Assembly: GCA_002167555.2 (NCBI GenBank)
Contig: NHDL02000002.1
Location: 208,760-243,226, forward strand
Reading direction: 5' to 3'
Source of the DNA: Deltaproteobacteria bacterium TMED58
GTDB taxonomy: Bacteria; Desulfobacterota_D; UBA1144
DNA: 34,467 nucleotides
The stretch's first letter is position 1. Each line of letters opens with the position of its first letter. Of the stretch, positions 2,845 to 4,123 are shown piece after piece. Below the pieces are notes generated by a model. It was not told where the DNA came from and did no database searches. It was given only the letters and a program-made list of their open reading frames with translations. The translations under genes were made by a program, and so were the position numbers.

Positions 2845-4123
2845 TTAGGCTATAGTATTAAAAGTTTTTAATTTTGCAAATTTCGCCTTTTTTCCTAATG
2901 AGTCCTCGATTCTAAGTAGCTGATTATATTTAGCAGTTCTATCTGTTCTTGAACAAGAACCAGTTTTTATTTGGCCTGAGTTTGTTGCTACTGAAATATC
3001 AGCTATGATAGCATCCTCAGTTTCACCTGATCTATGTGAAATTATATATGAATAATTATTTTTCTTAGCTAAGTCTATAGCTTGTAAAGTTTCTGATATA
3101 GATCCGATTTGATTAATTTTAATTAAAATACTATTTCCAGCACTTTTATCAATTCCTGTTTGTAATCTAGAATTATTAGTGACAAATAAGTCGTCTCCAA
3201 CAAGTTGCACTTTATCTCCTATCAGATTAGTTAGCATTGCCCACCCATCCCAATCATCTTCATCGAGTGGATCTTCTATAGAAATTATTGGGTATTTATC
3301 AATTAATTTTTGATAATAAATTGAAATCTCCTCAATATTTAAATCTTTTTTGTCTATTCTATATTTTTTATTATTATAGATTTCTGTAGCTGCTACATCT
3401 AAGGCAAAGAATACTTCACTTCCTAATTTGTAGCCCGCATTCGATACAGCTTCAGATATAAAACTTAAAGCCTCTTCGTTTGATTTTAAATCAGGAGCAA
3501 AGCCACCTTCATCACCAACTGCTGTAGAATGAGAATTCTTATTTAATAACTCTTTTAAGTTGTGGAAGATTTCAACTCCCGCCCTTAAGGACTCCGAAAA
3601 CGAATCGAAACCAGCGGGCACAATCATAAATTCTTGAATATCTAGTCCATTATTTGCATGAGCTCCACCATTTATAATATTCATTAAAGGAGCAGGTAAC
3701 ATAAAATCTTCATTTTTATTTAAAAATTGATAAATTTCCTGACAATTATTCTTAGCTAAACATTTTAGGAAAGTGATTGAACATGCAAGGATAGTATTTG
3801 CACCTAATTTAGATTTATTATAAGTCCCATCTAGATTAAGCAAGAAATCGTCAAATTTTTCATAAGAATCAAAATTTTTACCCTCTATATTTTTTTTTGA
3901 CTATTTCATTAATATTTTTAACTGCATTTTTGACACTCTTTCCATTAAACTCATTTTTATTTCCGTCTCTAAGCTCAATAGCTTCATGCGAACCTGTAGA
4001 AGCCCCTGATGGAACCGAGCCACGACAAATTTCACCATCATCCAGCACCATATCAACCTCTACGGTAGGGGTACCGCGTGAATCAAGGATTTGTCTACCT
4101 CTTAAATAAGTTATTTTTGCCAT
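2845..4123 (-). CDS. eno: Enolase, reading frame interrupted by a 1-nt shift at an A9 tract (two ORFs: 3878..4123 N-terminal and 2845..3843 C-terminal)
   Basis: N-terminal [33 protein letters not shown]...[17 protein letters not shown] ends at ...EIVKKKYRG*. Deleting one A from the A9 run (T9 on + at 3890-3898) gives [37 protein letters not shown]..., continuous with the C-terminal ORF, which carries [19 protein letters not shown] and SHRSGETED. Confidence 0.92.

Follow-up and report, generated by a model that had tools for sequence, protein, structure and literature searches.

Genes broken by a one-base indel in a long poly(A) run are known from the insect endosymbionts Buchnera and Blochmannia, where slippage of RNA polymerase is proposed to rescue them (Tamas 2008 and Wernegreen 2010, as these studies are cited in PMC3017870 and PMC6260861). 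Blochmannia has 4-8 such frameshifted genes per genome and 114-153 such runs (PMC3017870, PMC4389277). Slippage on A9 has been documented in endosymbionts, and 12-50% of the transcripts of their poly(A) genes are reported to be corrected (PMC5009743). On poly(A) runs tested with the E. coli RNA polymerase, deletions were undetectable (PMC6260861). Transcription errors at A/T homopolymers are mostly insertions in both E. coli and Buchnera, and they were not seen to restore any reading frame (PMC5574713).

The enolase gene (eno) described here can be compared with two systems. With the slippage genes of Buchnera and Blochmannia it has in common a small AT-rich genome, a long A run with an indel of one base, a core gene that is otherwise intact and a similar number of affected genes per genome. 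It differs in that the organism is apparently free-living, the lesions are in no relative tested, the draft genome is a composite of several strains, and the repair of eno needs an RNA deletion. The second system is the homopolymer and consensus indels of metagenome-assembled genomes (MAGs). Here the likeness lies in one-base indels in A runs and beside ambiguous bases (Ns), in their being private to one assembly and in the damage to genes that should work, of which the eno of another draft genome, G035, is an independent example. The difference is that eno lies within a stretch free of ambiguous bases. On balance, the extra A in eno is probably a consensus or assembly indel of the MAG and most likely not fixed in the organism.

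The enolase locus

The genome is a MAG of 6 contigs (1.01 Mb, 31% GC). The source organism is uncultured, probably marine and apparently free-living; Candidatus Dadabacteria, which are streamlined marine bacteria (PMC8115339), are a possible group for a genome of this size and GC content. The window, the whole stretch of 34,467 nucleotides that was analysed, carries eno in two frames (Table 1).

Table 1. Positions of the enolase features in the window and of the other one-base frameshifts in the genome.
Feature	Position	Strand	A run	Change	Remark
A9 tract of eno (T9 on +)	3890..3898 of window	-	A9	one base too many	an extra base shifts the frame here
N-terminal enolase ORF, 81 aa	3878..4123 of window	-			Enolase_N PF03952 match
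C-terminal enolase frame, 351 codons open	2845..3900 of window (upper end about 3900)	-			TIGR01060
panC	C5:325329		A10	one base too many	
pepA	C4:35205		A11	one base too many	
ntrC-like regulator	C5:278063		A9	one base too many	
mnmG	C5:42023		A7	one base too few	
248-aa protein	C4:168015		A8	one base too few	
trpB	C5:235590			best fitted by an extra C within CCC	72 bp from an N
192-aa protein	C1:44866			extra base some 30 bp ahead of its A8 run	N-rich stretch
transporter-like protein	C5:104190			not clearly in A run	N-rich stretch
287-aa protein	C3:142613			not clearly in A run	

On the minus strand, positions 3900-3860 read GTC-AAAAAAAAA-TATAGAGGGTAA, i.e. GTC-A9-TATAGAGGGTAA, across the enolase junction. 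The N-terminal ORF carries the DSRG and SGAST motifs and ends in ...EIVKKKYRG*, with its TAA stop (3878-3880) just past the tract. The C-terminal frame overlaps it across the A9 tract; when read from its first usable start, a TTG, the ORF in this frame spans 2845-3843 and encodes 332 aa. The C-terminal half matches the TIGR01060 eno model with 490 bits (cut-off 300). A tblastn search of the genome with the enolase of a congener (G003) gave two abutting HSPs with a shift of +1 exactly at the A9 tract. If the tract is read as A8, eno encodes 425 aa with zero internal stops, and this repaired protein aligns gap-free and residue for residue with those of G003 and a second congener (G004) through the junction, opposite which the G003 residues are INSSIKSSVTDINFGSIAEFDNFLLELDGT. 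The lesion is a single one-base indel in an A run of nine, the remainder of eno being intact, and the split is confirmed as one interrupted reading frame, not a chance pair of ORFs. The preliminary description had reported an enolase split by one nucleotide at A9, repairable without lost residues by dropping one A, with enolase motifs kept in both halves; the sequence, ORFs and HSPs establish the split and its coordinates, and the alignment and profile matches bear out the rest.

The conserved motifs kept in both halves would also be compatible with separately translated enolase halves, or with programmed ribosomal frameshifting at the tract. Either is very improbable. First, ATG is absent from the C-terminal frame near the junction; the start available is a TTG (3843), which lies 35 bases beyond the stop and at which no Shine-Dalgarno-like stretch was seen by eye. 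Second, ribosomes would have to shift by +1 (or -2), but the slips for which A-AAA-AAA sites are known are of -1. Third, the split architecture is a shared trait in none of the relatives searched. In addition the catalytic loop (SGAST) belongs to the N half, so that a C half on its own is expected to lack activity.

Copy number and selection

The C-terminal half has a single match genome-wide, and a genome search with Enolase_N (PF03952) gave matches only at both sides of the eno junction. Enolase had been described as normally single-copy, and the search for a second enolase was indeed empty in the assembled sequence (genome estimated 92.8% complete). An ordinary pseudogene does not fit, as eno has no further stop or frameshift and no second copy; the preliminary description had linked that reading to a second intact eno and accumulated lesions, neither of which was found in the assembled genome.

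The downstream half of eno has 79% identity, the same as the genome median (79%). The changes in this half that are private to the genome number 36 at third codon positions versus 16 and 13 at the other two. This bias indicates that eno was under selection until very recently, and an ancient lesion was rejected on the same ground. Among other glycolytic genes, pgk is intact, and no match to gpmI (TIGR01307) exceeded the cut-off in this genome. In-frame stops show no excess genome-wide; interior stop counts resemble those of relatives, and such stops mostly sit near over-extended ORF starts. The pattern is thus not one of general gene decay.

Enolase in related genomes

Homologous loci of related genomes, a check raised in the preliminary description, were compared in four congeners and nine genomes from the family, the isolates SI054_bin67 and SAT211 among them. 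Each congener and each family member has an enolase frame of 428-444 codons without stops. The A run is absent from the corresponding site in the relatives inspected, where the residues encoded vary. Thus the eno tract and its lesion are private to this genome, and no eno frameshift common to other lineages was found among these congeners and family members. None of the frameshifts or tracts tested is common to a congener, and mnmG, panC and trpB are whole in congeners.

G035, a genome of 7 contigs from another family in the class, has an enolase frameshift of its own (L255, C5 about 83378). There one A is missing in an A7 run, at a position that differs from the eno break described here. Among 58 genomes of the phylum that were searched, at least 2 have a homopolymer break of eno; the remaining partial matches include some at contig ends. 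The G035 case indicates that homopolymer breaks of eno turn up independently in draft genomes.

The assembly and its one-base frameshifts

About 1,700 isolated single Ns are scattered in clusters across the genome. Of the 1461 that fall in genes of at least 150 codons, 1031 (71%) occupy the third codon position, 264 the first and 166 the second. Such a preference indicates strain polymorphism collapsed to ambiguous bases, and hence a multi-strain composite consensus. Minimus2 is used in at least one pipeline for marine MAGs to merge contigs from different samples at 95% identity (PMC5769542). A multi-sample merge of this type would be a possible route to such composites. The Ns are invisible from the window alone, because the window (C3:208760-243226) is exactly the 34-kb N-free stretch between the Ns at C3:208759 and C3:243227; the N nearest to the A9 tract lies 3,894 bases (3.9 kb) away.

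Frameshifts were counted by tblastn of the G003 proteins against the genome and by the reverse comparison, with one match in an RNA-like region left out. Ten one-base frameshifts are present in about 800 coding kb, versus about one in 802 kb of G003, which is N-free. Six were assigned to the homopolymer class by reading each junction. Both trpB and the 192-aa protein were rejected as members of this class, since an extra C fits trpB better and the extra base of the 192-aa protein falls before its A run. Three of the four frameshifts not clearly within A runs lie by Ns (trpB, the 192-aa protein and the transporter-like protein). A partial sample of the N-bearing congener G002 has three +1 frameshifts (L238, L234 and L233), all adjoining Ns, a pattern suggesting that the N-bearing type of assembly makes one-base insertions. 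A partial sample of another N-bearing genome, G008, has almost no frameshifts despite many Ns, and a sample of G001 (138 kb) has none. Taking all the frameshifts in the present genome, 6 of 10 lie within 500 bp of an N where 37% would be expected (P = 0.12); for the homopolymer frameshifts the figure is 3 of 6, not significantly closer than chance against the 37% background. As this enrichment is not significant, proximity to Ns was rejected as proof of artefact. One-base indels are thus frequent in this assembly, whereas its genes show no general decay.

Run length

When coding A runs are classed by their printed length, the frequency of frameshifts climbs steeply: 0 of 1541 runs at A6, 1 of 737 at A7, 1 of 308 at A8, 2 of 78 at A9, 1 of 8 at A10 and the only A11 run (1/1). 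Replication slippage would produce such a rise, and so would homopolymer errors in the reads or the consensus. Among runs of A9 or longer, 4 of 87 are frameshifted here and 0 of 71 in four relatives (P = 0.09); at A8 or longer the counts are 5 of 395 and 0 of 408 (P = 0.03). The per-tract excess over relatives is weak because this genome is simply richer in long A runs, its 87 coding runs of nine or longer being 2.6 times the number in G003. Compared with codon-shuffled genes, A9 runs are at 0.72 of expectation here and 0.42 in G003, and runs of A10 and above at 0.15 and 0.12, a depletion of about sevenfold in both. Since the longest runs are about equally depleted in the two genomes, selection against long runs appears to persist.

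Origin of the extra base

The preliminary description had offered transcriptional slippage in its title, with an assembly error and a recent mutation as the other readings. The split, the tract and the repair stand; slippage is unsupported, and an assembly error is now likeliest, followed by a recent mutation. If A9 were real, full-length enolase could come from a fraction of transcripts in which RNA polymerase slippage had removed one A or added two. The setting is suggestive: an AT-rich genome of 1.0 Mb with 87 coding A runs of nine or longer, six homopolymer-frameshifted genes, a count like that of Blochmannia, a downstream half of eno conserved to the level of the genome median, and the slippage on A9 seen in endosymbionts (PMC5009743). 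It is nevertheless unlikely that slippage maintains eno. Four of the six homopolymer lesions, eno among them, require RNA deletions (or two-base insertions), no tested frameshift or tract is common to a congener, and runs of A10 and above are depleted as strongly as in G003, so that selection still appears to act on long runs. Moreover, a glycolytic enzyme needed in abundance could hardly be expected to forgo the greater part of its output. Slippage lacks support because the lesion is private, the assembly is a composite with other indels, and loss of one A is rare on poly(A). The wider proposal, of fixed A-run indels in about six genes of a streamlined and apparently free-living bacterium of the ocean, its sole enolase included, all rescued by slippage, is a little more doubtful still. 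If true, it would extend slippage from insect endosymbionts to planktonic bacteria, and transcription errors could then sustain a core glycolytic gene in a free-living cell.

A real and recent insertion by replication slippage, either segregating or newly fixed and deleterious, and without important rescue, has somewhat more in its favor, although it too is rather unlikely. The climb of frameshift frequency with A-run length is what replication slippage predicts, the third-position bias of the private downstream changes points to selection on eno until very recently, and eno is located in an N-free stretch. Sequencing and consensus errors are, however, expected to give the same dependence on run length. 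In addition several core-gene lesions are unlikely to have been fixed together in an apparently free-living organism that has only one eno and whose pgk is intact.

The preferred explanation, a consensus or assembly indel, draws on the assembly as a whole, namely its composite nature and its other indels. Sequences of several strains were merged into a composite with some ten single-base indels, of which six fall in A7-A11 runs. In living cells eno would then be a normal continuous gene, as in the intact relatives, and reads carrying eight As are expected at the tract. The more likely lesson of the locus is that one-base indels in essential genes of composite MAGs can mimic biology, and that a whole-genome frameshift count, not a single gene, distinguishes artefact from biology. 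Several points count against an artefact: eno is in an N-free stretch, the homopolymer frameshifts lie no nearer to Ns than chance would place them at significance, the N-rich G008 is almost frameshift-free, short-read consensus errors at A8 or A9 are usually rare, and the per-tract excess over relatives is weak. In its support, the frameshifts strike the core genes eno, mnmG, panC and trpB, all of which are whole in congeners.
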